DNA of 64,000 bases from Pezizomycotina sp. ARF18 (lineage: Eukaryota; Ascomycota), in contig AZLU01000131.1 of the NCBI GenBank assembly GCA_002224055.1, positions 1 to 64,000 on the forward strand. The letters run 5' to 3'. Position 1 is the stretch's first letter, and each line of letters opens with the position of its first letter. The notes under the pieces were generated by a model. It was not told the DNA's origin, did no database searches, and worked only from the letters and a program-made list of their open reading frames with translations. A program made the position numbers and the translations under genes. Positions 7,122 to 57,041 of this stretch are shown piece by piece.

Positions 7122-7939
7122 TCAGACCAGCATGCAGGGACGAGGATAGCAGCAGCAAAGACATTCGCACCAGCGCTCATCGGCGCGGCCGCATTCGACT
7201 TGGAAGTCGAAGAGGCAGAAGCGGCGCTTCCAGTCGCAGTCGAACTGGGGAGATTGAAAAGTCTGGCTAACGAATTCGGCTTGACATTGTGGCATTTTGC
7301 AAGCTGACTGGGCGGCGCTATCAGGCTTGTAGCAGCGGCCGTAAAATTGACTGCCGCGCACTAAAATATTTAAGATCGAATATTAGCTAGCTAACTCCAT
7401 TTCCCCCGCAAACTCTTTTTTTTTTCTCTTCTGCTTCATGTTTTGAACTAACGGTCCCTTACGGACGGGAGGAAAAACTTTGCGTAACGTCGCACGAGCC
7501 CAACAAAACCGGGGTTAAAAAAAGTTGGGAATAGTTCTCTTACCTGTAGAGGAAACCACCTTCGGCATCCGCAGACTTCTGGATAACCTGGATGGCGCCT
7601 TCCTTGCCCTCCCACTCCTTGGGCGGAAACGTCAGGCTCGCAGAATTGCCCTGGCCGGTCTGCGAAATAGTGCCCGTGATATCTTCTTAAGTGTGGCTGT
7701 GCGTTGAGCAGGACGGCGCGGAATTCCCACTGGACGGAAGGATGGGTGGTCAAGACCGCAATTGGATTGCGCTGATTGGAATTGAGTGATGGTCTTGCGT
7801 CAGTGATGTCGAACGAGCCGCAAGGGAACTCATTCTCCTTGTCCTCATTGAAGCCAATCGAAGTGGGGTAGTTGAGCTTGAAGTGGGCCGAGACCGCGGT
7901 AAGGAGGAGAGAGAATGAGAGAAGGGATTGAGCGTGCAT
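7122..7939 (-). CDS. BIM1/X325 LPMO-like copper-binding protein, GPI-anchored
   Basis: A secreted copper-binding protein of the X325 family (copper acquisition factor BIM1-like). These are structurally like lytic polysaccharide monooxygenases but are thought to bind copper rather than cut polysaccharide. The signal peptide (about residues 1-18) ends VSA, so the mature chain starts with His (HFKLNYPTSIGFNEDKENEF), the N-terminal copper ligand. A CGSFD block and TTHPSVQWEFRAVL follow; the His in TTHPS is a candidate second ligand (my inference). Then ITGTISQTGQGNSASLTFPP and EGAIQVIQKSADAEGGFLY complete the core. An intron at about 7361-7543 precedes a CAAVNFTAAATS exon. The end is Ala/Ser/Thr-rich with a hydrophobic tail (ANVFAAAILVPA), as in GPI-anchored members. 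Frame slips occur near 7690 and at the exon junction. It lies between a copper transporter and a metalloreductase. Confidence 0.85.
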
Positions 7940-8779
7940 TTTTGTGATTATTAGAGCTTATTTAGAAAAAGAGTAATTGAGTATTTCTTGAAGCGGGAGA
8001 AAAAGACGTTCAATTGTGATATTTTGAATATGTAACTTTGGATTGTATTTGTTAAATTTAAGAAAGTGGGAGTCGAACGTTAACAAATGAAATAAGTAAA
8101 GGATTATTGAATATTTATACCAATGCAATGACGATAGGAAAAAAAAAAAAAGTTGGCACCAAAATAAATTAAGAAATAATTCGCAATTTAACTTCTAATC
8201 CCCGGGGATGTGAAGTCACGAAGTTACTTAGAAGTACTTAGTAGTCTTTGCCGCATTGTTCTTTTCTTTCCTTTTCTTTTTAACCTCTCGGCAAACATCG
8301 TCATTAAGAACGATCTATATCGCGCTTGGCGGCTGAAGATTCGATTTCGAGCTAAGGTTGCGTTGAATAAGACTACCAATGATGTATAAAAAGCACAACA
8401 ATCCGAAACAACTGATCCCGTTGCTTGCTACAAGTATTTTTCACTGACTTCATGAGCTCGGTCACTTATTGAAGCCTCACACTCAAAGGCAGAGATCCTG
8501 CGCTTTTTTTTGCGCTTTAACAAACATACGAGACTTTGACCTATCGATTCCTGGATACAGGACCTTTTCAACTGCACTTGGCAAGGTATCGTCCCGTCAT
8601 CCGGATAATGTAGCATCTCAGGCTTAAACAAGGGTATCAACAGCCTACGATGGGGTTGCGCATCATCAAGAGGATTAACGTAACCATTTTCTCAATCCTT
8701 TCACTATCCTGGACGACATTCATGATGACATTTAAAAGTTGAGCGGTTGAGGTTGTTTCGATTCGGTATGATCTCCGCC

Positions 8780-10473: not shown

Positions 10474-12596
10474 ATGGATATGAGCGGGATGGACATGTCC
10501 AACTCGTATACATCGGTAACAACATGTCGGAGCGTATATTGGTAATGATCGTTGCAGCGACGGACTTCTCCTCGTTACCAATGTAATGAAGAGGATAGTA
10601 GCGTGGCTAAGGCAAGTAAGATTTTGTTGCTACAATAATAACTTTGAAAGAATCTGGTTAAATTTGTTTTGCCTTCTTTAACAACAGAGTGAGGAGGGCT
10701 CATCGGAATGCCTCCTTTCCAGCTATCGCAGCGAATCCGTGAACAACATTCGCAACTCTGACAGCGATGGTCAGAGAAGGTCTCTTCCTTCTTTTCCGGC
10801 ACCCTTGCAGACCTTTTTGGTCTCGATTTGCACCGCCTCTTGCCGCCTTCTAATATTGCTTGCGTACATCATCACGATAATATGCATGCTCGTTGTAATT
10901 CGATTGAGACGGCCCTGACTATTATGAAAAGATTGGCTACAAGAGCGGCGTGGGTAACGGTTCGCAGATTCCGTTCGTATACTGTTAGCTGGCAAACAGA
11001 GCATATCTCTCTAATCAGCGGCATCTCCTATGAGCGGATAAACTGGTTCCACCGATGGGTGGCGGCGGGTTACGTTTCGCCGCCGCGTCCGTGCACATGG
11101 GCTTCTTTCTGCGGGAGTGGGCTATTTCCGACTTCTTTCAGACGAGATCGAAATGATGCCGATGGTCAAGTACGGCTCGGGCATACGTGTCCTAGGTGGA
11201 TGCTCGTTACCAGCATCATCCCATGCGCTACTGGATGTACGAACTGTTCGTTCTCACATATGGCATCCGCTTGGAGCGCTCCTATGGGCTCTGTGGATGC
11301 ACATACGGCTTACGCCATGTACAACATTTGGCTCGCGATAGCTTTCCTGGCAGCCGATAGGGTGTGGAGGGTGCACGGTTCTCTTGCTATAAATCTGAAC
11401 TTCTTCAAGAAGACAAGCAATGGGGCAGAGGGATCGGTTACCAGGTCGACTTGGTTGCCTTCGAAGAGAATCAAGTTACCGAGTTATAATTCGCGATGTT
11501 AATTCTCGTGGCGGGCCGTCAGCATTTGTACCTTTCATTCGCTCGTACGCCTTCGAAGCCATCCATTTTCGATATCGACTGCATGCCTGAGGACGAGAAA
11601 GCGGCGAGGGACATCCGTCTCAACATCAAAGCTCACTCCGGCTTCACGAGTCGTATTCAAGAAGCGTGAAACTCAGTCTGCACCAAACCAACAGCAACTC
11701 GCCTTCGTCGAGGACCGTTCGGTACGCCGCCCAGATGTGGCAGGCTACGGGGCCTTATGCTTATTGCTACTTGCACCGTATTACTTTTATTCTCCCCGTC
11801 CTCGAGGAAAATCTCCCGGTGTGACCGCTCCCCGGAGCTGCGTCGGCAACGTTTCATTTTGCTGGATCGTCCGCCACGCGTGAAGCGGATCATCTACTCA
11901 TAGTGAGGCAATACGTTAGGGCAGCCGGCCGATAAAGGTATTGATATCAAGTGCACTTTACGTCACTTGCAAGCCTGCAAAGTCGAGGTAGTTCCGCCTC
12001 AACAGAATCCGAGGACTTAGAGAAGAAAACCGCCACGGAAGTTGAAGAGGCTATGATGGAGGATCGAAAGGCTGTGTCTGCGATACCCTGCCGAACCGCG
12101 GGCCGGGAACTGCTGCTGCGGCCCGAAGGCGGTTGCTGCGGAGACGGATGACGCTATATCACTATCGGTTCACGCCACTCTTCGAGCTCATCGACCTCAT
12201 ATTCGACACCGAAGATAAGAGTCGGATTTCCCGCCAAGTACGGCGTCCAACATCCGGAAGGTAATAGAACGATAATAGATGCCGTGCGGAGAAACAGCTG
12301 TAGCAGTCTGCGCAAACCGGCTTGACGATCTGATACGGAACTTTGTTGCCACACTATGCGATGAACGTGCGGTTGAGAAAGGTAAAGTAGACGAGTCGGA
12401 TTTCCCGCACAAGTACGCCGTCCCAACTCCGGAAGGTAATAGAACCGATAATAATGCCGCCGACGGAGAAACAGCTGTAGCTCTGCGCAAACCCGGGCTT
12501 GACGAGTCTGATACGGAACTTTGTTGGCCACATCATCGATGAACGTGCGTTGAGAAAGGTAGTGCAGACGGAATTCTCCTGTTTACCGAAGGATGA
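10474..12596 (+). CDS. FRE: Fre-type ferric/cupric reductase
   Basis: A plasma-membrane flavocytochrome that passes electrons from NAD(P)H through FAD and two hemes to extracellular Fe(III) or Cu(II). It starts MDMSGMDMSN, a Met-rich start seen in one group of fungal Fre proteins and similar to the Ctr N-terminus. The membrane part shows ISYERINWFHRWV, VHMGFFLREW, IEMMPMVKYG, VLGWMLVTSIIPM, LLWALWMHI and YAMYNIWLAIAFLAADRVWR, with heme-ligand His in FHRW and VHMG. A flavin block HPFSI and a nucleotide block GPFGTPPDVAGYGAL follow. The C-terminus reads GETAVAVC, LDDLIRNFVATL, DERAVEKG, ending GSADGILLFTEG and a TGA at 12594-12596, the standard Fre ending. That last module is present twice in tandem, period 174 bp. 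Introns near the 5' end are not resolved, and the frame slips many times. Confidence 0.85.
12219..12570 (+). repeat. 174-bp tandem duplication inside FRE
   Basis: Two adjacent copies start at about 12219 (GAGTCGGATTTCCCGC) and 12393 (same 16 bases). The offset is 174 bp, or exactly 58 codons. Each copy encodes ESDFP, GETAVA, a DLIRNF-like stretch and DERAVEKG. The copies differ by scattered substitutions and short indels, so the event is not brand new. Confidence 0.85.
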
Positions 12597-18421: not shown

Positions 18422-19569
18422 CTAGCAGTAAAACATTAAAACATTGCAAAAAACCAGAAAAAACGCCGTCCGTTCCACAGAAAATGATATGACATGATGG
18501 AGCTGAAATACAAGTGTTACAGAAAAAATAAGACGAAAAAGAGTAACCCTCCGAGAAGCCAAAGAAGATGCATGCTGGTGCAGAAGATGATCATGTGGCC
18601 TTTTCCTTTCTTTCCCGGCCGCCTCCGCCTCTTCCTCCTCTTGACCCTCAGGAATAGTATCTAGGGCATTCTCGTCTTCATCGTCCTCATCTTCATCTTC
18701 ATCGTCCTCTTCGTCTTTATCTTCCTCATCCTCCTCATCCTCCTCCTCACTGTCTGACGACATGAATTCGGCGTCTTCGTCATCGAAGCCAAAATATACA
18801 GTGCGGTAGCCTTCGGGCGGGCTGTATTACGTTTTCGTTATCGTCATCGGATCCGGAGTCCTTCGAAGATCCTTCCCCGCATCCTCCAAGATCTCTTCGC
18901 TACTGCTACTCGCGTCTAATGGGCCCTTGACCTCGGGGACCTTGCGCCGTTCAGCTTCATAATCTTGAGCACAGCCTCCCTCGTCTTGTTCATATCCTCC
19001 TCCTTCTGATCTAGCCAATCGACGTCGTCGAAGCGGGCATTGCCTTTTCTCCCACCGTTCTTGATGCCTTGCTCGGCGCCATCCAAAACCTTCTGCCAGC
19101 GCTCCCTCCGCCTTTCTTTCTCCTTCTTGTCCATGTCGGATTTGATCTCAAGGTAGGCCGCGAGCGCTTTGACCTCTTTTACCGTCCTCATCCTGCGACC
19201 GTCGAGATTACGACACGAGTCATTATTCTCTTGCCCCTTGCGCTTGCGGGACGACATACGACCACCGGCAGCACGGAGCTGGGAACCGAAAACCTCCTTT
19301 GCCACCGCATAAAGGGGCGTGGAGCCTGAGAGTGAGGAGTTCCCCGTCATCGCCGGCGAGGCTCGAGATTGGCGCGGTCGATGATCTTGAGAGGATGACG
19401 CCGGATGCCGTAGACAGAATCAACCGCGAGGAGATGCTTGGAAGGATATCTGTCAGGGTGCTGAAGACGTCGGAGATGGGGAGGGTTCTCGGAACAGGTA
19501 AGGAAAGCGTTGACGGGAGAGATAGACCAGGAAAGGTCGAGATGAGCAGTTTGCCTTTTTCGATTCCAT
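18422..19569 (-). CDS. SDE2: SDE2, splicing and genome-stability factor
   Basis: Sde2 is made as a ubiquitin-like precursor, cut after a Gly-Gly, and the C-terminal part joins the spliceosome. The ATG at 19569 (MESKKAN) leads into a ubiquitin-like fold: [59 protein letters not shown]. It is followed by [20 protein letters not shown], the hallmark GG/KGG cleavage site. Then come [39 protein letters not shown] and the [12 protein letters not shown] helix region. The later part has a Ser/acidic stretch ([14 protein letters not shown]) and a very acidic block, [20 protein letters not shown], near 18760-18700. Frame slips occur near 19540, 19285 and 18935. The frame stays open to 18422, but the last 40 or so codons are hydrophobic and may be 3' UTR, so the true stop could be near 18560. 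The head of the acidic block could in principle be a separate exon. Confidence 0.85.
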
Positions 19570-21837: not shown

Positions 21838-23457
<1,620 letters not shown>

Positions 23458-24599: not shown

Positions 24600-27500
24600 A
24601 TGGTTCTCCACGGAGAATTCGTTTACCTCACGGAGGAGGAGAAGAGGCTCAAAGAAGATAGGGAAAAGAGAAAGTACTGGAAAAAGGTGCGTGCGCCATG
24701 TTTCTCACTTTTTTTTTTTGGGAGCTTTCCTGGAGCTATGTGCTAACGTTTGGAGCTTATAGTGGGGTTGCTATACGCCTGACAGACAATGGTATACATT
24801 CTTAGAATATATACTCGAGCTCAATTTGCTTTTGACTGAAAGCGCTAACGATTATGATAGGGCCACGGTGCGTGAGGATTACAGCCATGACGGAGATGCT
24901 TGGAACTCATTCCCTACGACCATGCTCGCTCCAGAGTGTTTCGATGGGGAGAGGACGGTATTGCTGGAGTTTGCGATAGTATGCTTCCTTTATACCATTC
25001 TCTATTTTTGACGATCATAATGGCTAATTTTTAAACAGCTCACGGTCGTCAACATATTACCTTTTCATTTTTCAACGAGAAAGACGGGCACCTCAAAGAA
25101 AGACTCTTCGGACTGTCCAATCCTCAGGGAAACCACGGGGAGAGCTTAAAAGAAGCTCATTTTCACCTCGACAACACCCCTACGCACTCATACATGAAGT
25201 TTTTATATAAATTTCCTTCATCAAAGTTTCCTTACGAGCAGCTGATAGAGGAGAACGCCAAGCGCGGTCGCGATGTACCCGAATATACCATATTTGACAC
25301 CGGCGTGTTTAGCGAAAACCGCTACTTTGATATCTTCATTGAGACGGCAAAGGATGGCATTGACGAAGAGGAGCTGTTGTTTCGAGTCACTGCTTATAAT
25401 CGTGGTCCCGAACCGGCACCAATTCATATCATCCCCCAAGTAACCTTCCGCAACACTTGGTCTTGGGGCAGGAACGACGATGAGAGGAAGCCGTCTTTAA
25501 GGCGCAAATCAGAGTTCGTAATGGAGACCGACCACCCGGACTTGGGAAGGAGGTTTGTTCAGTGCTCGCCGTCACCGGGAGTGACTCCCGACGCCAGCGA
25601 TATCAGTCCCCAAATGCTGTTCACTGAGAATGAAACGAATTATAAGTTATTGTATGATGGTGAAAATAAAACAGTAAGAGTCTCTTAACCCTCTAATTTT
25701 GCATTGAGAGATCGACTGCTGACAGCTCTTCTCAGCCTTATACTAAAGACGCATTTCACCGTCGAATTGTTGATGGAGAACTTGACGCTGTGAACCCTGA
25801 GGGAGTCGGAACAAAAGGATGCCTGTGGTACGCCTTTGAATCCGGTGATGGAGTTCCGCCCGGGGATGTGTCGTCGTTCGCTTCAAGTTCTCCAGGAAAC
25901 TAGAACGTGGTAGCATCTTGGACGAAGAACTCTTTGACGAAATCATTGACGCCCGCAGGAGCGAGGCCGATGAGTTCTACTTCAGAATCAGTCCAATGCC
26001 CGTATCCCAGGATACCGAGAACATTCAAAGACAAGCATTCAGTGGTATGCTCTGGACAAAGCAGCACTATCATTTCATATATGATCAATGGGTGGAAGGG
26101 GATCCTAGCCAGCCTCCACCTCCCGAAAGTCGTAAGGGTATTAGAAACGTAGGATGGCGTCACCTGTATATCGATGGTCAGTAAACGCAAACTAGCTATA
26201 TTGCTATGACGTTATTATGCTAACTATGAATCCAATAGATGGTGAGTAATATCCGGCTACCGGGGATATTCAAACATATTCTTGAAAAATGGTTTAAGGA
26301 CGACTACGACTAAAACAACTGCTATTTCGCACAGTGATTAGTATCCCGGAAGGGTTTGAATACCCGTTCTTCGCGGGTGAGTTGTGACTCCTCCAGAGCT
26401 GTTAAGGAAGCTTCAATCACAACAGACATAGTTACTGACGGAAATATAGCCTGGGACACCGCCTTTCACGCCATTCCACTCGCCAGTATGTTTAACTACT
26501 CCTTTGCAGCGTTTGTGTATTAATTAGTGAAAATTGCGCGAGCAAACTGGGCTTCAACGCCCGGGTGGTCGAGAACCTTCGCTTCACTAATAAATAGCAA
26601 CTTAAGAGCCTTTGCATTAACAACATCGTCTTCCTTTAGTGGTTGACCCGGACTTTGCGAAGAAACAGCTCGATATCTTGACGAGAGAGTGGTATATGGC
26701 ACCAAATGGAGCTCTACCGGCATATGAATGTAAGCCTTTCCCTAACGTTATATTAAACAGCGAGCTTGCTCTATTCTAACGAGACATCTTTCCTTAGGGA
26801 ACTTCAGCGATGTCAATCCGCCCGTACACGCCTGGGCCACTTTCAGAATCTTCAAAATGGAGAGGAAGCAGTACGGCCGTGAAGATCTTGATTTTCTCGA
26901 GAGGGTTTTCCAGAAGCTGTTACTCAATTTCACTTGGTGGTGAGGTAGCCGCTCTCCCACTCAGCCAACCTCACTTACTAACTTGGAGGTCTCTACTTTT
27001 TAAGGGTAAACCGAAAAGATGTCAACAATAAGAACATCTTCGAAGGAGGCTTCCTTGGTCTCGACAACATTGGTCTTTTCAATCGATCTGAACCCCTCCC
27101 CACCGAAGGCGTTCTGGAACAAGCAGATTCGACGGGATGGATGGCTTTTTATTGTCTCAACATGCTTAATATTTCGCTGGAGCTCGCAAAACATCGCCGT
27201 AAGTAGATACATTCCGAGTATACACTCATCTACAAACCTCCCTAACCAACCTCGTCCTCAATGTAGGTGTTTACGAAGATATTGCCTCGAAGTTTTTTGA
27301 GCATTTCCTGCATATTGCCGACGCCATTGGGTCCCTGTGGAATGAAGAGGACGGCTTCTATTACGATGCAATTTCGTGGGGTGGGCCATTCTCTCAACAG
27401 CTTCCAGTCAGGTCTTTGGTAGGGCTTATTCCTCTGTACGCCGTTCTCACGCTCGAGCCCGAGGTGATTAAGAAATTGCCATCCTTCAAGAAGCGGGTGG

Positions 27501-28646
27501 ATTGGTTTGTTGAAAACAGAGCCGACGTAGCGGAAAGAAACATAGCGAGTATAAGGAAGAGGGGCAAAGGCCAAAGGATGTTACTCGCTTTGGCTAACAA
27601 GGATCGACTCGTGCGCATATTGGAAAAAATGCTCGACGAGGATGAATTTTTTTCCCCCTTCGGCATCAGATCCCTCTCCAAGTACCATAAGGACACGCCG
27701 TATAAAATGGAAGTCAAGGGCCAGGAATTCAAAGTGGATTACACGCCGGGAGACTCGACGAGTTCAATGTTCGGAGGGAATAGGTAATTACAACTGTTTT
27801 ACATCATGCTGTTTACAGCTTTTTTTTTTTTTTTTTTTGCATTTGTTTGCTAACTGCCTTTTAGTAACTGGCGTGGCCCGATTTGGCTTTGCGTTAATTT
27901 TTTATTGATCGAATCACTTCAAAGGTTTTATATGTTTTATGGCGACGAACTGAAGGTTGAATGTGTGAGTACAAGGCCTTTTATCCTATGCATAAAAGGC
28001 TCGTTCTAAGCGTCTCATAAACATGCAGCCTTCTGGCTCCGGAGAACTATACCATCTTGGCCACGTCAGTCAAGAAATTCAACACAGGCTTCAACACATC
28101 TTCACTCGCGATCATGACGGCAAGAGGGCCTGCAACGGCGGCAACGAGCTTTAGACCACGACCCGTACTGGCGCGACCTAGTGTTTTTTCATGAGTTCTT
28201 CCACGCTGATACCGCGGCCGGCTCGGGGCATGTCATCAGACTGGTACGTCTCAGTTTAACCTGCTATCTGTTCCTTTGGGGACAATGGCAATGCTTGCAT
28301 CCTACAATTTAGTTTTAGAAGCTAACTTCTAGGTCGCATTAGGTTGGACTGGTATGTTCAGTGCTTTGACATTACAATACGGACATTGATTAACACACTT
28401 CTAGGCCTTATAAGTAAGATCATTGCCGATACGGGGGTCAATTGCCGCGTCCCCAAAACCCCACGCACCCCATCGACCGCGGCTTCTCACTATTTCGACG
28501 AAATATTCTCTCGGTTCAAAGAACCTAAACCGTTCTACGGCCGCCGGTCTTCGATGCGCTCCATTGGCGCCCGCAGTGATTTTCAAAGTGATACTGCAAG
28601 CCAAGACGACGCGGATCTCAACGTGGAAGAACTCGAGCAGGAGTGA
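24600..28646 (+). CDS. GH63-like (MGH1-like) six-hairpin glycosidase
   Basis: A large fungal glycosidase of the GH63/mannosylglycerate-hydrolase-like group, probably cytosolic because I see no signal peptide. The ATG at 24600 gives [20 protein letters not shown]. Blocks in order: [251 protein letters not shown]. The Ser-rich end [16 protein letters not shown] closes with LEELEQE-like acids. The family is about 890 residues and this matches. There are many small introns, including 24687-24762 and 24792-24860. A 9-base micro-exon at 28343-28351 supplies the WTG of HQTGWTGL. The natural substrate in fungi is unknown to me. Confidence 0.88.
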
Positions 28647-30061: not shown

Positions 30062-33026
30062 CTAACTATACGTTCGGTCCGATGAATGAGTGGTTTTGGC
30101 TCTCTTCGTTACGTCGTGGTTACTGGCTCGGGAGCTCCTGCGCTTCGTCGAAGTTGCGTTATCATCGCCCAACAGCCAATCCACAGCGCTCTGGAGATTA
30201 TTCGAACACGCCTCCAGCGCCCCTTCGGCCAAAGAATCCGAGAATCCCATTGACACGATTTCGCTCAGCAATTGATCCCTGCTAGCGAGAGCATTCGATG
30301 ATGGAATTCCTTGGCCTCCAGCAAAAATACCTATCTCCGGGTCCTTGACTGCGGTGACATGCTCTTCCCTTGACTCCTGCCCCTGTTGTTTACCATGCTT
30401 CATTTCAGCCACTTCTGTGTCACGATGATTGCCGGGAGTAGAAGTGGAAGTAGCAACATCACAGGCGGCGAATGCTTGACTAGACTCGCCATGTGTGTAT
30501 TCAACAACAGGTTGGTGGGTTTGAAGACAGGTCCATCGGGGGCCCAAAAGGTCTGAGTGGGCTTCGGTGATGGAGATTCTTCCGCAACTGGCTTGGATTT
30601 AGACGTGCGCTCGAAAAAGGAACCGATGGTGCCAGTATTTTTAGATGCGTCGAGTGTAGATGAGCTATTGCGCTCCCCGGTAGTTAGTCTGGTTTTAGGC
30701 GTGGAGGCGAGGAAGTTATCAATAGTACCCTGCCTTTTAAACGAGCTGGGCGTATTTGAGCTAGTGTGAGGACGTTGGAAGACGGAATTCTGTTGAATGG
30801 CCACTCCCTCTTTGTAAGTCGCTCAACCTCCTGGCCCCCGTCTCGGGCGCCTATCCAGTGGAGATACACGACAGTAACCTCCCTGGTTTTAACTGCGTCA
30901 AGATCTCCTTTGTGGTGCTAATCCGTTCCACGGTAATAGGTTAGCATGGTTCTGGGTGCAACACACAAGAGACCGAATAATGAAGCGAGAGAAAATCGCA
31001 AAAAAAAAAAGAAAAAAGATAGAAAGAAGGCATACTGTTTTGATGAAGGCAGACCCCGGACATAGTCAAGAATGAAGGTAGCCCAATGTATGGGACATCT
31101 TCGGCGGCGTTGAGCGGTAAAGACATCGCTTAACGAGTTTATATAGCGAGCAACTGGTTTCACGTCGTAAAGTTTCGTCAATTTGTTGCTGAGGAATTCG
31201 TCAACACGGATTTACTCCATGAGGCTACCAAGTCAGACTGTCCGTGGACCTACAAGGGTGCTTATCCATTAATACCATAGTTAATCTATAAGAAAGGCAA
31301 ATGTTGGATAAAACTACTTACGATTGCGTGACTTTGTTTCAGCTCCTTATCCCAGACTGATTCTGTGACCTTGTGGAAGAAACTCCCACCGCTTGAAGGT
31401 TGATAACGATTAGCGCGGCCGCTCGTACCGGTAGAAAAGTCAACATATCCGTGTTCCCGAATTACACCCGGAGTATTGGGAGGTGTTAATAGACTCCATT
31501 TCCAAAGTCCGCTGAATTCATAGTCTTCTATTCGGAAAATGATCCTTCCATCGAATCCGACGACGATCAGTCCGACGACGTCCTGTTCAGGAAGCCGAGC
31601 GGCCAATGGGTAGAGATCCAGTCCAAAGGGTCGCCGATCTTCGCATCCATCTCCTTAAACGCTTCTGACGGACGTAATTGAGTTTTGATACGTCGACTTT
31701 CGACAGTTTTCGTTGCTCCTCGGGAGATAGCTCAGATATTCCCCATGCTGACTGAGACCTCGGGCAAAAGTAACGGCTATCTTCAACTTCAAAGTCGTCC
31801 TCGTATTTATTCACTTTTTTATTGCAATGGTTATAACAAACGACGCAATAAGTAGAAAAATGTATATTACCATTCAATACTTCAGTAATAAGGCAGTTGC
31901 ATTCATTAAGACGTGCTACCTTCCAGGACAGGATCGATTCCTGCATCCACGGTATGCTCCAGACGACTTGTGTTTGCAACCGGGGTGAAACGCTTTAATT
32001 GCCTGGTTTCTTATAAATACTTCTTTACACAGTTTTGGATTTAGTTCGAAATATAGTAGGTCACTCGGCTCCTCAAATTCGAACCGATTCTCGTTCTCAT
32101 AAGTTTCTGGAGCTCGTTATAAAGGTCTTCCATTTTAACGAGGCGATAACAACCGATACCTATTCGCATATCGCTTTTCGTTCGAGTATCACGATTAGGA
32201 TACCTGGTTTATTTGGCAATATCAGTACGAAATATAGTATAACCAGAAACTGAACAGAATAAAACCCTTTACCCTTTATAGGCATAGCCCTCGTTGATGA
32301 CCGAGATCATTATAAAGAATTGCTGAAAATCACAACTTTACTTCCCTGTACTTCGGATTTCGCATGACAAACTGTTCAACCGGAAGCGAGTTAACCCGTT
32401 TTTCATCCCCCTCTAACGAGCGGAAAAATATAACTCTTTGGTCATCTTCTAGATGATAGAATAGAAAACCATCATCGTATCTAAAATTCATTTCACCGTT
32501 AGCCATATCAGTGGGTACGTAAGGGGATATAAACTGCGTTACAGTTTCGATCGTTAGTTTCTCTGGCACGCCTGTCATTCTGAAACCCGGTTTTACTACG
32601 ACGTTGCTTCCGGTCCTCTTCGTCCAAAAAGGGGTAGATTCTGAAGAATTGAGCAGGGCCATGTAGTCTGTGTAGCATTGAACATTTGAAATAGCAATTA
32701 AACTCCCAAAGATAATTCCTGGAGGCATTTGCCTATACCTGTCGTGGGTGAGGTATATCTATCCTCCCAATTTGGCTTCGTGGTACCATCTTTATACGTT
32801 AAGCCCTAGTCGAGAATGAACCTCGCTGTCTCTATATCTTAAATGAACTTCCCACCTTGATTCCATCGTAGGGGACTATTGGGTTGAAGGCGGTAGATTC
32901 CGGGGATTTATTGTGGTATTTAGTGTTGTGATCCTTCATGTTCGGCGTAGATTTATACGTTGTTCTATACTCCTTACACCCAGGATGGAAGCAAGAATAA
33001 CACGGTACATGTGTAGTCACGGCCTT
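30062..33026 (-). CDS. Unrecognised C2H2-finger protein with PIP-like motifs and a UBA domain (paralogue A)
   Basis: Multi-exon gene of a family I do not recognise, paired with the gene at 34770. Parts in order: a C2H2-like finger (HVPCYSCFHPGCKEY ... DHNTKYH); an exon with YRQMPPGIIFGSL, FWTKRTGSNVVVKPGFRM and DDGFLFYHLEDDQRVIF; a YCVVCYNHCNKK element; a KLNYVRQKRL helix leading to GDPLDW; GRIIFRIEDYEFSGLWKW and VIREHGYVD; HWATFILDYVRGLPSS; then VYLHWIGARDGGQEVERLTK. The C-terminus has two PCNA-binding-like motifs (QGTIDNFL and TGTIGSFF, about 30 residues apart in a Ser/Thr-rich linker). A UBA domain follows (LLSEIVSMGFSDSLAEGALE, NLQSAVDWLLG) and then a basic end (KRRSSRASNHDVTKRAK). The stop is at 30062. 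The first exon is not placed: the frame at 33020 opens with GTG after a likely 3' splice site. Binding to PCNA and ubiquitin is inferred from motifs only. Confidence 0.7.
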
Positions 33027-34769
33027 CTACAGGGCAGGGCATGACACCGTAGTTCAGTTGTAAAAGCTCCTTCAAACGGAGAGCCGGCACAAATATCCTT
33101 GACCCATAATTCTGTCAAAGCATTCCCCGCTACCCTATGCTGTCCTATGCTGTCTGCGAAGAGTAAGAGGGAAAGGCTGTTAGTTTATATGATAACTGAG
33201 CACTTATTTAAGGGGAAGCATGAAAATTCTTGCATTCTAAGGAAGAAACAAAGAAAGGAAAAGAAAAGTTGTCGACGTGCGCGTTATCCTTCGGATGTAC
33301 TTACCCATATCAACCAGCTCTTCGGAGAGTTTAGGTTTCGGCTTTCCTTGTCTCCTTATATCGATAAGTAGAGGTTGGTAGGAAAATTTGCTACTTCATA
33401 TATATTAATCCAACTCGGGGAAATCAGCGGTGCCATAATAGCTATTGTATCTCCGAAGAGAAGCTTAGACAGTTTCTCCCTCGCTTCAGTGGCCAATAAA
33501 TGTCCATTTGGACTTCAATAGGGCAAGCGTAAAAGGTGACTTACCATGCATTTAAATGCGCTGCGAGTGAAGATGCCATAATATGGAGGAAATATACTTT
33601 CGTTTTCTTGTATGCTCTCTCTATTACTAACCTTTGGCTCAATAATATGGGGAAAGCTCGAAGGGGCTTCTATTACGAAGGAACTCCAAAGACTGTCTAA
33701 TAATACGTACCAAGCCACTCTTCCCCCGCACGCTTTGGATGCGTGACTGAGTAAAATAGCTACTTTATAGAAAATTGGGGGTTGTTGGTAGGTTTCTATC
33801 AAGAGGTATTAAAGCGTTTATAAGTCTTCGATTACGGTTATCTACGAATGCTTAAGCGTTCTCTCTCTCTCTATTAGGTCCCCAATGCCGTCTACGATTC
33901 TTGAAATAAGAGTACATAACATGAAAGAATATCAATTCCATGATCACCCCCCCCCCCGGGCCTATATAAAGTCCCGTCAGAAAAAAAAAAAGAAAGAAAA
34001 GAAAAAGCACTCCCAATGATTGGTATCGCGTCCAGGTCGTGCACAATAATCAGTGAGTAAAAAAGGTGAAAAATGGTTACAAAGTAAGCCTATCAGTGTT
34101 CCTAAGCTATTTCTTGATCCTCAGTATTTCCATTGGTTTCTTTCGTTTAAGACGATGTGATCCGTTTATATCGTTGTTTAGCCAGTGATGATTTGCAGAA
34201 TTTCCGTTCAGATACTGTATTCATGCTCACTTCGTACGTATTTTTTTTTTGAGCATGTACTTGGTTAAACGTTATCCAATATATCGATCAATCAGGAGCG
34301 CGCTTGATCATGAAAGAGTTCTATACCTTTGTCTTTTCCTTCTGATAACGGAGATTCTCTTTCTCTTTTTTTTTATAAAGAAAAAAACATAAGATTAAAC
34401 CATGCAAAATACAAAATACAAGATAAAAGAAAACGGATCGGGTATACAAGAGTAAGGAAAATGAGAAGGGAAAGATGACAGAAAAGAAAAATATGGCCTT
34501 TTCATGATACCGTAAAAACCCCAGGTAGAATTGGAGCCTTTTTGATCATCATTATTATTTTGAAACAAGGAAGAAAATAATGTTTGCTTTTTGTTAATGG
34601 TAATTAAACGTTTAGAAGGATGGTACGGAAGTAACAGGAAGATGAAGAAAAAATGACAAAGGGCTGAAGAGTCGTTCGGGTATTCATAGACAGGGTCGAG
34701 AAACTCTGTATTTGCCGTGAGGAGAGAAATTAGAAATAACAACGATGAAATGGTGTCATCTGGTACTTT
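33027..34769. other. Spacer between the paralogous genes
   Basis: About 1.7 kb that should hold the promoter and first exon of paralogue A and the 3' flank of paralogue B. It includes a 10-C run near 33949-33958. No separate gene recognised. Confidence 0.4.
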
Positions 34770-37570
34770 CTAGTTAACAGATGCGGGGCCGTTCTTAGAC
34801 TTTTTGCTGGAGGTATTGCCTTTGCTCGTAGATTTGCGCTTCTTAGAAGAAACGACGTCGTACTTTTTTAGATGGAAGGTGCCTTTAGGCGGAGGCGGTC
34901 GCACTACCGGCTTTTTAGATTTGCTCTTATTGTCGTCATAACGCTTTAATACGAAATTACCACGAGGTAGCGGGGGCACGCTCTAGTACTTTCTTATGTT
35001 CCGCCTTTGTATCGTCAAACGGCTTTAGTGTCTTGACACTTTTGGGCGTTGCCGTGATATTGAGGCTACTGGATGATCTTTGTTTGAGGGCTTTATTTGA
35101 AGATTCGGAGACCGCATGATCTTGCTCAGAGGTGTCCTCGGGTTCCTGGGGTTGATACGAATTGGTGAGGTTATCATTCGATGTTTCCGCGCGCGGGATG
35201 GTCCATTCGACGAGGTTACTTTGCGAAGCCTTGTTACTGCTGGGAACAAGTTCAGTAATGGCATTATCGGAAGCGCCATTACTTGCATATCGTCTATGGG
35301 GTTTAAACGGCCAAGCACTCAAGGTGAGTTTCTTAACCTCTTCTCCTCCATCTCGCGCTCCGATCCAATGAAGCCATATTATCATGACTTCCAAGGTTTT
35401 TACCGCGTCAAGATCACCGATATGAGCCTATTTTATGTTATCGAAAGGAAAAAGGAATTAAGGAATGAAGAGAAAGAAGTGAAAAAAAAAAACGAATATG
35501 TTAGATTACCGTTTCCCAAATGTGATCTACTAGAAGTGAGGAAATATACAAAGGAAAAAACTTACGGTGTTGAGGAATTTAGACCCGGGACAGGGTCTTG
35601 CATGTAAATAATCTAAACTTCTGTACATTGAGTTTGGGGTAGATGGAACGATGCCGTCTTAATTTCAGAAGATTTGGATGCTTTCCGCTAGCGTGTATAC
35701 CAAAAAATTCGAGAAGCTTTTCGATTAAGAACGCATCGACGTTGCTCTTGGACCATGATACGTGATAGTCGGCACCTTTCGTGACCTGTCGTCGCCACTG
35801 TCATTATCAGGTTCGTAGCCAGGAGTATATGTATTCAAATCATATCGTGGCAACAACTTCCTGCTTTTACAGCTTCGCGTAGATCGTCCCTCCAATTGAT
35901 GTTGGGTCCATCGGCAGTCTTATCATACTCCAGAGCACTATGCACAGCTCTAGAATGTGCATCCGTATAGCCTAGTTCTTTGATGCTTGAATATGCGGAC
36001 GCGGGTGTGATAATCGCCCACGGACCTAGCGGCCGAAACTCAAAATCGAAGACAGTGACTTTCTGAACTCCATCTAGTCCTTGCACTATCGACCTACGAA
36101 ATCTAGAGCGGGACGGCATCTTGGATTATTATTCATCGTCCAGTCCAACGGATCACAGCCTAGGCGTTCATCAAATAAAACGAAATTTTGGCTTTCTAGG
36201 TACCTCAACCTGTCATATAGTTCCTTCGAAACGTTAAACGTGAGATAGGAGTCAGGCAAACGAAAGTCACGCGCCTCCACGGGAAATCCGCCACCTTCTT
36301 CATATAGTTCCATTCCTTTGTGTTTCCGGCGGTAGGCGGCGTGTGAACAGGGTACGCAATACTGCCAAAATGTCAAAATCTCCCCTTGCTCGTAGAGAAC
36401 CGTATTAAACGCGTTTACTAATTGAACACCGACAGGGCACCTGGCATTTCCACAGCTGCGGCGACGGCCGGTTCCCCCAGTTTACACGCTGATTTCTTTT
36501 GAAGGGCCTCATTTCTCGCAAATATTCTCATGGCGAGCTCGGAGTCGAGGTCGAAGAACAGCGGATGAGTGGGCTGAGACGGCTCGAAGATTTTTTCATT
36601 GTCATACGTTTCGTTTAGTTTTCGAAGTAAATCATCCGGCGCGACTGGGTGATACTCTAAGATGTTGGGCTTCGTTGAACGACTGTATTTTCATGCAGAT
36701 TAGCACAGACCCTTGATACCAGAACGTGAGACTCCAATCCTTACCTGTCCCATGCGTAACCGTCGCACAACTTGGTCAACGCAAAGTAATCATCAACCAT
36801 GATCAGACACTTAGACATATTATATTCCGGATTTTTCTTAACAAATTTCATTAACGCCCACGTCCCAACATTCGATCTCCTCATGGCGGTGGTTCTGTGA
36901 AGTACCGTGCGAGTTCCACATGGCACTTGAATGTAGAGGAACCCATCTTGTACGCCGATGTCGATTTTGCCGTCATCACTAAAGAATCATCCTAGATATT
37001 CTGTCATTGAAACGATGGATGGGTTACTCGGAGGCGGGTCGCCTTTGAGCCGGAATTCTGAAGCGATTGGAATGCTTCCACTATTTGATTTATACCAATA
37101 TCGATCCTTGTCTGGAATTTCTGCCATAAATTCTACAAGAGAATTAGAGAATGTTAGAAAGGCGCATCAATTGTTTTCTACTAGAAAGAAACGAGCCGGC
37201 TCTACAATAGAGAGGATACGAGAAAGAGCTGAAGGTAGATTGGAAATAGAAGGATACATACCTGACGAAGGCTTACAGAGTGTATACATTGCTTCCACCG
37301 AGTGTTACTCTTGAACTCTGCAGACTTTTTTTTTTTTTTTTTTTTTTCAAACTTTAGCTTATGTATTGCACAGCGTTTGGAAACCTAATGAAGAATGCTA
37401 CCTTAATACTCGAAAAGAGCTTTTCGGCCTCGAAGGAGATTGTCGTTAATTGCTCTCATGAAACTTTTTACAATGATCCTTGGCGCGTTTTACTACTGAT
37501 CGAAATGCGGTCTTCTCATCATCGCATTCGATGCATCTGTAACAGGGGAAATGAGACGTCAAGTGACTAT
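34770..37570 (-). CDS. Unrecognised C2H2-finger protein with basic repeated tail (paralogue B)
   Basis: Tandem paralogue of the gene at 30062. It has the same order of parts: finger (HFPCYRCIECDDEKTAF ... DHCKKFH near 37540-37460), EFMAEIPDKDRYWYKSNSGS with IPIASEFRLKGDP, QDGFLYIQVPCGTRTVLHR, WALMKFVKKNPEYNMSK, YCVPCSHAAYRRKHKGMELY, CDPLDWTMN, FDFEFRPLGPWAIITP, SIKELGYTDAHSRAV, and WLHWIGARDGGEEVKKLTLS. The C-terminus differs: a Ser/Asn-rich linker, then two copies of a short Pro/basic motif (PPLPRGNFVLKRYDD and PPPPKGTFHLKKYDV) and a Lys/Ser-rich tail (SKKRKSTSKGNTSSKKSK) that resembles a nuclear localisation signal. No UBA or PIP motif is visible here. The 5' end is not fixed. Frame slips are frequent. 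Confidence 0.68.
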
Positions 37571-41655: not shown

Positions 41656-44146
41656 TTAGGTCTCCAGCCCACGTAAAGCACGGACGAATTCCCCAACCTC
41701 AAAAGCAAGCCTTCGGATCGTCGCACCCTCCCACCCGTTCTTTCCCACGGTAGCAACGATGACACCTTCAGCAAGGGAATCCACAGATCCTGACAATGCA
41801 TTCTTGTCCTCTTTGACCAATATGGTCACGTCAGGGCCAACGCAAGCCGCGCCAGATTGAGGCCGTCCACTGCAGTGCTCCACGGGCGTGAATCCTTCCG
41901 AAGACGAGGCTAATCTGTTCGCCGCCTGGTTCGCCCGCGAGTATATGTATCGGTTGATGAGCACGTTCTGGGGTTGAAATTTGCCGAGGAAGGCGAGACG
42001 GAAGACGCCGGCGGTGACATGTTCTGCACTGTCGATCCCTGTTGCTGGGATTGCGCGGCGGAGAGCTGCCAGGACGCTCATAAGGCTGTCGATGCTGCTC
42101 ATCCTCATATCCCCATCCTTTTCTACGTAACCGCAGAACCAGTCGCGTAAGGTCCCTCGTCTTAGCCCTCCAGTCGGCCACAGACCTCAAGTACTCGCCA
42201 TCAGCCTCCCTTCGTCCAAGTCGGCATCGGGAACAAGAATGCTACCGTCGTCGCAGAAATCATCAGGGCTGACTACCACGGTGTTGTCGCCGGTGGTACT
42301 GGTCATGTTCTCCTTTAGGGAGATGACGAGGTTGCTGACGACCGAGCGGTCCTCGCCTTCGATAGCCACGACGGCGCCGCGGTGGAACTCCCGGGACGCA
42401 AATGTCGACAACGGCTTCGCAACTTTCATAATACCCTTGAGCTTCGTGAGCGGTGGAATGGCCAAGTGCGACGGCACGTAGTCGAAACGGCGTGTAGAGA
42501 GCGGGAAGCTGTTGCAGAGGGCGGAGGCATGTCCTTCCTAAGGTTAGATTCATCTTTCGAGAGCAGGGCGTTATTATTCGAAGTGAAGGATCAATATTCG
42601 TATCCGGGCTCGTTTCAGCTAGAACGGCGCTGGTAGGGGTCATCAGGTGGGACTGCTGATTGCCATTGTTAAGTTTTCTTTTCTTCGAGTTGGGGGGGAG
42701 TTTTCGGAATTTCCCGATCGTCCTCGAAATCATTCTGCAGGCCAAGCTGCAATAGAGCTTCCACTCCCGCTTGGGAGTCATGCTCATCTATACGCTTCTT
42801 TTTACCAGCTAGCGCTTGGAGCTTGGGCGGAACCACTTTGACTGGCGGTTTCGACAAGCTAATCGGCTGCGATAGGGAGTTGCCGGAGTAGCAGGCGTAG
42901 CTGGAGTGCTCGGCACCGACAAAGCTCCAGTTTTGCCTCCACATGTCTGACAAAAGGCCATTTCTCCCGAGGGTAGACCTCCAGCACCAAGGCCTGGCGT
43001 CTTTTTCCCGCTTCGTCGTGGTTGATAGCGGTACTCCGGATAACGCTGCAAATGCTGCTTTTTCTCCTCCTATTTCACGAGAAGAAATAAAAACATCTGT
43101 TAACATACTATTAAAAGGGAGTAAGATGACAAATTGGTAACTTACTTCGGCAAGTCTCTGCCAAACATCGCGGACCTCCTGAGGACTTTCTTTCCACATA
43201 TTTCCAATGATCTTTGAGATCTCGGGGTTCGGTTTTTGGGATTTTCTGCTACTACAGTTGCATCTTGTGTTGACGAAATAGGATGAAAGCTTTCGAAACA
43301 GCCAGAGCATGTTAGCCAATGCTTCATAACGTTGCTGTGGTACAAAATTCTAGACATAATCGTAACATACCATTTCTAGGACGTGGAATTCTCGCCGGCT
43401 GCTGGCATAAACAGATGTTGATATGCCCTTCAAGGTCGCTAGTTTTCAAGCTAAGTTCCTTCGTGTTCAAGGGCGGCATGTCCAGACTTGCATCCAGATC
43501 ATGGCTTGCATCTGCATTGAACAATTTTAGTACTTTCAAGGTCTGTTGTTGGTGACTACAAACCGAAAGATCGTCAAACATACCATCCATATGCATGGGT
43601 GAAAAGTTGTCGAGGTCTGTGCCACTGCTATCCCCGGTGCTAGTTGTCGAAGCGGCTCCGCTGTGGCCGTTTGCTTCCGCAGAAGTGCCCTTTTCAGAAC
43701 TATGAGAAGCTAACGAAGGAGGAGCCGGCACATCTTTCGACGTCTGCTGGGCCGAGGCTGGAGCCTCGACACCGGGCGTATGTGCCTTCTTTGCAGCTTC
43801 CAAAGCCGCAGCTGCCGTGGCGGTAGGTTCAAAGTCAACTCTAGTCATGTCTATGGGGTCGGAATCCTCGCCTCCGAGGATCGTTCCTAAATCTGTGTTC
43901 GGATGCTGCGGCCCAGTTATACCAGCAGTACGGCTGTGTTGACCACCGTCCCCTACGATAACGTCGTGTTCGAGCTTGCGTGATCAGAACCCCGAATATC
44001 CTCCCAATTGACCCTTCGTTATGCGTGTGCCGGAAGAACTCGTGAGCGTCTCGGTCTAGTTGGGCTTCAATCGTCGCTGGATTGGCTGATGTGTCCGCAT
44101 TCCCACCAAGAACCATAACAGAACCCTGAGATTTCGAGAGGGACAT
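41656..44146 (-). CDS. HMG-box transcription regulator (Ste11/Fmf-1/MATA-HMG type)
   Basis: DNA-binding regulator. The ATG at 44146 gives MSLSKSQGSVMVLGGNADTS. A Ser/Ala-rich segment ends RIPRPRN, where an intron (about 43295-43371) splits the HMG box. The box continues AFILFRQHKMQ, VVAENP, PNPEISKIIGNMWKESPQEV, RDVWQRLAE, a further intron with a CTAAC-like site, then EKAAF, YPEYRYQPRRSGKK. After the box come FCQTCGGKTGALS and a triple PATPATPATP repeat. The conserved C-terminal part found in Pezizomycotina homologues follows: HLAIPPLTKLKGIMKVAKPL, GAVVAIEGEDRSVVSNLV, YLRSVADWRAKTRDLTRLVL, GPDVTILVKED, and the end RRLAFEVGEFVRALRGLET. The single-residue spacing of the box and the PRPRN start match sequence-specific HMG boxes used in mating and fertility control. 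Which ortholog it is cannot be settled by eye. Several frame slips. Confidence 0.88.
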
Positions 44147-54352: not shown

Positions 54353-57041
54353 TCATTTAGATTTCGAGAGCTTCCCTTTGCTTTTCGAGGAAAAGCTTTT
54401 ACTCTTCTTGGGTTGCTCGTCTTCTTCGTCACCGTCGTCCAAGAAGCCGTCGTCGTTGTCCTCGTCGTATTCGACCTCGTCGTCGCTCACGACAAAACTT
54501 TCATTTTCGCTCTCCTCGTCGTCACCGTCCGAAGATTCTTCGGCCTCGTCATCGAGGTACCTGCCGACGTCATCCTCGTCATCCCCCTCATCACTAAGCT
54601 GGACGTCGTGGTCGCGCTCCGCATCACTCCCTTCCTCGTCTTCTTCCGCCGAGTCGAGCACGCCGTTGACGCCGTGTACCTCTTCATCTTCCTCGTCGCT
54701 CGCGGAGTCCGAACCTTCGACGTCATCATCCTCGGCGCCCTTCAGCAAAGCAACCTCGTTCTCATCGCTGCTCTCGTCGTCGTCGTTGACGCCTTCGACG
54801 TACACCACCGCCTCGTCGTCGTCGTCGCCGGGTTCGCAGCGCGGCTCATGCTGCGCAGCTTCATCTGGGCCACGAGCATGCGCAGCCTGCCGCGGAGAGC
54901 CAGCATTTTGTTGAGGGACGCGGATCGGCGACCTAGCACCCTTTGGAGGCTAGCTAACCTGCTGATGAGGTCCGGCAGGGTGAGGAGGTGGCCGCCGTGG
55001 TACACGAACGTAGTCTCTACCCATATCATCAGGCTTCCGGCGCGGCCCGGTTTCCTGGATATCAGCTCGGAGAGCTTGGAAATAAGCGTCACGGCCAGCA
55101 CGGAGTCGAGGCGCGAGATGGTAGACGTTATTATCGACGGGTTTGTCGTGTGGAAGCAAGTTTCGAGGAGCGCACGGTCTGACGTCTTCAGCGCCTGCGT
55201 AAGGACGGTCGTAAGAGAGTCGCGTTGGGGAACTGAGACTGGTTCGTTGCTCGGAGGGCCTTTGTAGTGTCACCGAGCGATGGGACCGTGATGTGGTGAT
55301 TGCCGTCCCCGAATTCGACGATACGATACTGTTGCTCTGGTCCATGCTCGATTCGGTTCCCGTTCTGCCCTCAAGTTGCTGGAATTTTTCGGCGAAGGAA
55401 GGCTCTGGAATTCTTCCTTATCTTCTTCGTCATCCTCTTCCTTCATCTCCCGAGCCGTCAGCACGCGCAATGGCAACGTCGTCCATGGCGAGACCGTCCC
55501 CTTCCTGGTTAGCTTCTTCTTCGGCTAAAAGACCGGCTGCGTCGGTCATCCCTACGTCTTCTGTATCAAGACCATCGACAACGACAGCCGCAGCCTGATC
55601 AAGGTTGGATTTACCGACTTCCTTGACACCGTTCATCGTAGTTCCGGACGTATCTCTGGCGCCGATTCCGAGTGACTTGGCCTGGCTAATCTGAATATCT
55701 CCTTGAATACCGACTACATCCGAAGTTGCACCCGTCCACTTCACCGTCGCAAAATAGACGTTCGTCCCGTTCTCGACCCACGCGAGGACTACCTCCTCCT
55801 TCATGAAGCCTGCGCTCAGTATCTTCACACTCTCGGAACTAGGCCGCGCGACGGCAATCCGCGCCGCCGACGTCCTCGTAAGTGGCTTCTTCCGCGTCGT
55901 ATCCTCTTGAGCAACCTGCGATACATAGGACCAGGGCTTCTCAAAGATTTCAGCCTTCCTTCCGAATTCACCAGGACAAGGGCAGCCTCCGTTGGATCAA
56001 TGGCTACACTCTCCACATCACTCTGAGCAACGAGTGATCCGACCAATTTGCCAAGCCATATCAGCAACATTGACGAACGGTCGCCCCGCGCTGCAGAAAG
56101 GAACGCAGACTTTGGACTTTGACATCAGCAGCGAGTGTATCTGCGACGTATGAGACGAGACCGGTGACCGAGATTCCAGCGGGTTTCGAGGTCGACATTG
56201 TACGTCGAGTGTGATGCGCAGAGGACCGAGGTCGAGGTAGGAAGTATACGTCTCGGGGTCCCATAGTTCTTCGGTAGAGTTATAGATCTATGGAGTAATT
56301 TCACTGGATTAGCTGTAGGCACAATAAGAGTCGGTCAAGAGCCAGTAATAATTCCACGATGGCGATTTATCTTAGATCAAACGTGGAAGCAGGTTTGTAG
56401 AGATTTGAAGGGATTAAATGCGCTGCCAATAGAATATCATACCGAATCTTGATTCCTCGCTTCAGTCCCATTCTACCAGGGATCGTCTCCACAGCTCCAT
56501 CCCCTCGCCTTCTTGCTCGCCTCCACGAACTGGAATCAAAGACGTTGCCCCTGTGCTCGCCTTCCAGCGTTTTCACAATCGAGCCCTGCGAAGGCGAATA
56601 TATGAATACCTTCCCAGCATTTCGTCGCAAGCGCAACGACAGTACCCAAAACATCTCCCTCGTCTGCTCATCGCCGCCATCCTCGTCCTCGTCCTCATCG
56701 TAGTCCCTTCCGTTACGTTTCCGTTGGTCTTGGACTCTCTTCTCCTCTTCCTCCTTTTCTTTTTTTCTTGTCGGAATCTGTTAGCGTTCCCAAGCGAGCG
56801 AGTGGATCTCGATGTTCTTTTCGAAAACATGCTCGCAACCAACGCGATGTTGTCACATCGTGGATCCGAAGCCTTTGACCGTCAGGCCGCGTATGGCAGA
56901 AGCAAAACAGGCCGGTCCGCAGGTGCTGCGGCGAGAATGCAGCTGCAAGCAGCGGCGATGGGCTCGAGGATCCAGCGACCCGAGTTTCGCTGCAAGGTGC
57001 GGCGAAGCTTTCAGTTTCTGCTTTTTCGACTTGCTGACCAT
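54353..57041 (-). CDS. UTP5: U3 snoRNP / t-UTP component Utp5 (WDR43)
   Basis: Nucleolar WD40 protein of the t-UTP complex, needed for rRNA transcription and 18S processing. The ATG at 57041 gives MVSKSKKQKLKASPHLAAKL. WD-repeat parts follow: LLAAAFSPQHLRTGLF, RLRIHDV, VFIYSPSQGSIVKTLEGEHR, VAQSDVESVAIDPTEAALVL, VVLAWVENGTNVYFATVKW. The Utp12 domain is clear: ALKTSDRALLETCFHTT, LAVTLISKLSELISRKPGRA, VYHGGHLLTLPDLISRLASL, QRVLGRRSASLNKMLALRGR. The C-terminus is a long acidic tail (DDDESSDENEVALLKGAEDD and onward) ending in a Lys/Ser-rich stretch, typical of nucleolar proteins. Many frame slips and at least one intron near 56770. Confidence 0.88.

Follow-up and report, generated by a model that had tools for sequence, protein, structure and literature searches.

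Introduction

In the DEDDh (DnaQ/RNase_T) exonucleases the motifs Exo I, Exo II and Exo III follow one another in a known order that is also visible in an 11-member profile, with H-N being usual at the Exo II site. UBA domains are found in many proteins unlinked to DNA. The PIP box has in its canonical form Q at position 1, a hydrophobic residue at position 4 and F or Y at positions 7 and 8 (PMC6116012), and in SNM1A a PIP box and a UBZ ubiquitin-binding finger act together (PMC11199599).

The two fungal genes described here, A and B, resemble these systems in part. Both paralogues contain a D-x-E, then a D and then an H-x4-D-A, an order that may correspond to that of DEDDh exonucleases, but no significant profile match to these is obtained, and A and B have in addition a finger, a Cys4 element and an HWIGARDGG helix region. 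About 35 residues of the tail of A match the UBA domains of USP5 and RAD23A by profile as well as by sequence, but at E ≤ 10 Pfam recognises nothing in the A composite beyond the UBA. Like SNM1A, the tail of A joins PIP-like peptides and a domain of ubiquitin-binding type; in contrast to SNM1A the domain is a UBA instead of a UBZ, the PIP-like peptides are non-canonical, the core is a different one, and the modules lie at the C-terminal end rather than in the N-terminal region (PMC11199599).

Results

Two minus-strand genes share an ordered set of elements

The window, i.e. the whole stretch of DNA analysed, comprises bases 1-64000 of contig C131, the genome as a whole amounting to 46.36 Mb in 408 contigs. 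Its ribosomal spacer region is of fungal type. A and B are both located on the minus strand with ~1.76 kb between them, in line with the 1.7 kb given in the initial annotation (Table 1). That annotation had also listed a set of elements common to both genes, and every one of them was found in A and in B in the same order: PCYSC...KDHNTKYH, FWTK...GFR, DGFLF, YCVVC, DPLDW, HGYVD and HWIGARDGG in A, and PCYRC...KDHCKKFH, YWYK...EFR, DGFLY, YCVPC, DPLDW, LGYTD and HWIGARDGG in B.

Table 1. Features of genes A and B (positions in the window).
Feature	Positions	Strand	Basis
Gene A, from the finger exon through the final codon (start codon unassigned)	30065-33011	-	pieces located by position
A, C2H2-like finger, PCYSCFHPGC...KDHNTKYH	32856-33011	-	sequence reading, location, shuffle test
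A, N-terminal core: FWTK, GFR, DGFLF, NPKY, GYAYK	32272-32677	-	sequence and six-frame comparison
A, GT-AG intron 3' of GYAYK, matching place in B 36683-36744	32204-32272	-	by-eye reading; gap between pieces
A, middle core: CRNRSC and YCVVC (Cys4 element), then DPLDW	31600-32202	-	sequence reading
A, GFDG, EDYEF (D-x-E), HGYVD, SWSKS, VDEFL	31035-31600	-	sequence and codon alignment
A, probable intron 5' of HKGDLDA, nearly the same place as B 35428-35565	30918-31035	-	by-eye reading
A, module HKGDLDAVKT...LHWIGARDGG	30795-30914	-	sequence and pairwise alignment
A, tail, pair of PIP-like peptides, namely QGTIDNFL (30709-30732) and GTIGSFF (30613-30633)	30613-30732	-	sequence reading
A, tail, UBA domain	30173-30274	-	Pfam PF00627 and PDB sequence matches
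Gene B, from the finger exon through the final codon (start codon unassigned)	34773-37550	-	pieces located by position
B, C2H2-like finger, PCYRCIEC...KDHCKKFH	37449-37550	-	sequence reading, location, shuffle test
B, N-terminal core: YWYK, EFR, DGFLY, NPEY, GYAWD; in-frame TGA at 36987-36989	36744-37133	-	
B, GT-AG intron 3' of GYAWD	36683-36744	-	by-eye reading; gap between pieces
B, middle core: CGNARC and YCVPC (Cys4 element), then DPLDW	36092-36678	-	sequence reading
B, GLDG, FDFEF (D-x-E), LGYTD, SWSKSNVDAFL, SLDYL stretch	35566-36089	-	sequence, six-frame comparison, codon alignment
B, GT-AG intron 5' of AHIGDLDA	35428-35565	-	by-eye reading
B, module AHIGDLDAVKT...LHWIGARDGG and start of tail	34972-35427	-	sequence and pairwise alignment
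B, tail, lysine-rich end with two P[RK]G[NT]FxLK[RK]YD	34773-34976	-	sequence reading

A and B descend from one gene by an old tandem duplication

The view of A and B as tandem paralogues with diverged cores was supported by unguided six-frame matches, by the score of the joined cores and by matching introns. The six frames of the B region contain 53 open frames of at least 30 aa; all were searched by tblastn against the 64-kb window, and outside B six matches were obtained at E ≤ 0.01, all of them inside A (30793-32500), the best having an E value of 2.9e-15. Five of these were colinear and on the minus strand, while the sixth lies in a frame of the plus strand that covers the HWIGARDGG exon. 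The composites of A and B show 28% identity over 661 columns by BLASTP (E 8e-54); as they had been assembled with the paralogue as guide, the six-frame tblastn is the cleaner test against chance. The joined cores gave a local score of 521, with 200 shuffles reaching 49 at most, the HWIGARDGG modules are 70% identical across 40 aa, and the score of the two finger exons was reached by none of 2000 shuffles. In the B composite and in alignment A3 ~27 aa of B had been taken from the wrong frame, which was corrected in alignment A6 and in the codon test; the uncorrected stretch enters the BLASTP composite, one of the own-genome searches, the Pfam search with composites, the PDB searches with the B composite and A3, one search each of the viral and the prokaryote contigs, the comparison of motif residues, the motif-order test and the first DEDDh test.

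Two introns are found at matching places in A and B, one after GYAxx and one just before HxGDLDA, indicating duplication at the DNA level rather than retroposition. The donor and acceptor phases of the second intron in A disagree unless a frame slip is assumed. When A and B were each searched against the genome itself at E ≤ 10, a third copy was not detected, giving at least two loci. At the level of sequence, these comparisons show that A and B are host genes descended from one intron-bearing gene through an old tandem duplication.

In 477 aligned codons 167 residues are identical, and the identities at codon positions 1, 2 and 3 are 0.46, 0.60 and 0.29, respectively, demonstrating constraint at the protein level with third positions near background, hence an old split, which offers no basis for estimating a rate. 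The fast divergence suggested in the initial annotation is not supported by these values, which point to an old, constrained split. Its proposal of conflict-driven evolution also found no support: the codon positions point to constraint and show no conflict, and no expansion was seen beyond the at least two loci.

Frame slips resemble those of control genes in the same assembly

Both genes are interrupted by changes of reading frame, which, like the in-frame TGA of B and the UBA of A, the initial annotation had not mentioned. Taking gaps of at least 65 bases between pieces as introns, we counted eight intron-free slips in 829 aa of A, seven of them with an offset of 2 mod 3, and five in 749 aa of B (four with this offset); the six-frame comparison implies one further slip in B near 35.65 kb. 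An HSP70 gene of the same assembly (contig C49, 53293-54716) contains six intron-free slips in 472 aa, five with an offset of 2 mod 3, and an RVB1 gene (window 21931-22224, minus strand) contains two, one of them with this offset. As the slips of HSP70 are similar in frequency and sense, we attribute the slips in A and B to the assembly, and they look like assembly error rather than gene decay. Slips of the type found in the HSP70 control do not account for the in-frame TGA of B.

Thirteen intron-free slips across the pieces of the two genes, the additional one near 35.65 kb and the TGA would also be expected if A, B or both had decayed to pseudogenes. The slips of the HSP70 and RVB1 controls lower the probability of this reading, and the constraint at the codon positions likewise argues against it, although constraint preceding a recent loss would look alike; we regard decay as the least probable of the explanations considered. 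Open frames are often fragmented in this assembly, and genes should be read across slips before any of them is called broken.

The core is not recognised by Pfam, NCBIfam, PHROGs or PDB sequences

Pfam was searched with ten pieces at E ≤ 1 and with the two composites at E ≤ 10. The core gave no match above cut-off in any of them, only UBA models for the tail of A passing; below cut-off there were UBA_4, TetR_C_1 (0.082) and Laminin_G_2 (0.14, one piece of B). NCBIfam yielded no family for six pieces, and PHROGs, also with six pieces, yielded three weak matches with E values between 0.088 and 0.26, all of unknown function. No credible match to the core was detected among PDB sequences: the best value for the B composite was 0.04, and the profile of alignment A3 gave two matches, the better one at 0.68. 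With the profile of alignment A4 eleven PDB matches were obtained. Matches to 'Cake' propeller entries, down to 1e-8 with the B composite and the A4 profile, were rejected as repeat artefacts because each repeat contributes only ~3 bits in two of the A4 alignments and none of the stretches passes alone.

The core is thus a family unrecognised by Pfam, NCBIfam, PHROGs and PDB sequences. The initial annotation had named no family for it, and this agrees with our results, as Pfam, NCBIfam and PDB sequences provided no name, PHROGs provided only weak matches without known function, and in the libraries searched no described family matched the core strongly. Pattern searches for relatives in viral contigs and in contigs of prokaryote genomes returned 46, 10, 177 and 177 matches, none of which was confirmed. 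A literature search for the string HWIGARDGG had no match, a result that concerns this string and makes no wider claim on the absence of the family from print. AlphaFold2 predictions for two single-frame pieces had mean pLDDT values of 35.3 and 35.7, the latter for a piece of 93 aa, and gave no confident fold.

Putative zinc-binding elements are the N-terminal finger and a Cys4 element in the middle of the core. The finger has the spacing C-x4-C-x15-H-x4-H in A and C-x2-C-x16-H-x4-H in B, so that paired Cys and His residues are present; the loops are longer than the 12 residues usual in a classical C2H2 finger, and neither composite matched a C2H2 finger in Pfam at E ≤ 10. The middle Cys4 element has the form C-x4-C...YC-x2-C in both paralogues.

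The tails carry different modules

No relation between the tails of A and B could be demonstrated, since 27 of 500 shuffles reached the score of their comparison, consistent with the initial annotation, in which the tails were given as unrelated. Its description of the tails as swapped was a guess, as the ancestral tail cannot be identified from two sequences.

The tail of A contains a UBA domain (PF00627, E 2.8e-9), scoring 37 bits compared to a cut-off of 22.4, and its nearest PDB sequences are USP5 (1.9e-4) and RAD23A (8.3e-4). Two short peptides precede it, and measured against the canonical PIP box (PMC6116012) they are non-canonical, and only PIP-like, because QGTIDNFL has L at position 8 and TGTIGSFF does not have Q at position 1. 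The pattern Qxx[ILM]xx[FYHW][FYWL], chosen post hoc, was matched in 146 of 20000 shuffles of the A tail, and a double GTIxxF[LF], a pattern derived from the peptides themselves, in none of 20000. In the tail of B the peptides PRGNFVLKRYD and PKGTFHLKKYD are identical at seven of 11 positions, which was reached in 28 of 2000 shuffles; we know of no binding motif of the form P[RK]G[NT]FxLK[RK]YD. Each tail thus has its own doubled short peptide. Basic clusters are present in both tails, KRRSSR and KRAK in A and KKRK and KKSK in B.

Discussion

A tentative model of two nuclear proteins differing in recruitment

The reading that we prefer, at a probability of roughly 0.38, is that of a tandem pair of host genes for nuclear, zinc-binding proteins, of which A would be recruited by ubiquitin and perhaps by PCNA, the pair differing in the tail. 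The short basic clusters suggest, as a guess, that both proteins act in the nucleus. Nucleic acid may be bound via the N-terminal C2H2-like finger together with the middle Cys4 element, and the most conserved module, HxGDLDAVKT...HWIGARDGG, would be the functional part of the core. The tail of A would bind ubiquitin by its UBA and perhaps the PCNA clamp by its PIP-like peptides, as in replication-linked repair proteins; by analogy with SNM1A (PMC11199599), the most fitting interpretation of A would be that of a nuclear protein brought to its sites via ubiquitin and perhaps PCNA. B does not have a tail of this type and ends in its own lysine-rich stretch with the doubled peptide, so that we read the pair as probably differing by recruitment and not by the core. 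The paralogy, the matching introns, the constraint on codons, the slips matched by those of HSP70, the UBA, the PIP-like peptides and the basic clusters are consistent with this model, whereas the non-canonical form of the PIP-like peptides, the presence of UBA domains in many proteins unlinked to DNA, the finger with its longer loop and without a Pfam match, and the TGA in B count against it.

Alternative readings of the core and of the tail of A

The second half of the core might be a diverged DEDDh 3'-5' exonuclease of RNase H fold that trims 3' ends of nucleic acids, in the case of A at sites marked by ubiquitin or by the clamp. Exo I would be the D-x-E of FDFEF/EDYEF, Exo II SWSKSNVDAFL and Exo III the H-x4-D-A of HIGDLDA/HKGDLDA; the H of HWIGARD had been the first candidate for Exo III and was replaced by HxGDLDA after the output of the pattern test. 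The residues proposed for the motifs do not differ between A and B, and the order D-x-E, SWSKSNVDAFL/SWSKS.VDEFL, HIGDLDAVKTLEV/HKGDLDAVKTREV is present in both paralogues. Without guidance, hhalign matched HIGDLDAVKTLEV to Exo III in the 11-member DEDDh profile with both alignments, the preceding SLD..L stretch being in register in the run with the corrected alignment A6, but these alignments were not significant, with the score reached in 16 of 100 shuffles for A3 (E 0.15) and in 16 of 200 for A6 (E 0.083), and scores of 15 to 17 compared to 148 to 181 for true pairs, which are favoured by coming from the same alignment. An ordered conserved pattern D-x-E...D...H/Y-D occurred in 244 of 20000 column shuffles, in a post hoc test that had wide spacing limits and whose first match used a D other than that of the Exo II VD. 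Against the exonuclease stand also the 22 pairwise comparisons (best z 4.1, next 2.3, most near 0), W-S at the Exo II site of A and B, the lack of an RNase_T match for the Pfam composites at E ≤ 10 and the lack of a confident fold for the two pieces, and we consider it unlikely. Still further from our expectation is the wider proposal of an undescribed fungal nuclease family, in which a DEDDh-like core, a C2H2-like finger and a Cys4 element would be combined with tails that divide the labour, that of A recognising ubiquitin and PCNA and that of B another partner via the doubled peptide; we hold this to be very unlikely. If the core were a nuclease, annotation would be missing a fungal factor of repair or RNA processing, and A and B would form a natural pair in which the tails differ while the core is kept. 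If it is not, the pair still presents a constrained and putatively multi-zinc core that no Pfam model covers, one copy of which would be tied to ubiquitin.

A could instead be an adaptor of the ubiquitin pathway with no role in nucleic acid metabolism, its finger and Cys4 element binding protein and its PIP-like peptides having arisen by chance. The UBA being the sole recognised domain and having USP5 and RAD23A as nearest solved sequences would fit such an adaptor, but two similar peptides in one tail (none of 20000 shuffles) and basic clusters in both tails do not, and this assignment appears quite improbable to us. An N-terminal finger, a Cys4 element and conserved acidic residues, as carried by A and B, are also seen together in transposases, and the core may on this ground be taken for a domesticated transposable element, a finger with a D/E-rich catalytic core turned host gene. 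With no locus beyond A and B detected in the genome, introns at matching places and no transposase match in Pfam for the composites at E ≤ 10, we give such an origin very little credence.

Surroundings of the pair

The window contains ordinary host genes on either side of the pair, namely Utp12 (54742-55269, minus strand), an HMG box gene (42669-43349, minus strand), a bromodomain gene (62531-63259, plus strand) and a GH63/MGH1-like frame (27203-27787, plus strand), the last of which scored under both cut-offs. An SDE2 splicing-regulator domain is encoded at 18916-19419 (minus strand, E 1.8e-20), and a domain of a BIM1-like copper acquisition factor, in a protein of secreted type, at 7448-7957 (minus strand, E 1.4e-14). 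Elsewhere in the genome, contig C189 contains four 5.8S matches (18998, 29865, 51599 and 62460) spaced by 10.86-10.87 kb or double this distance, indicating an rDNA array in which the pattern perhaps missed one unit. Within the window a 175-base unit occurs twice head to tail at 12219-12561, with 89% matches.
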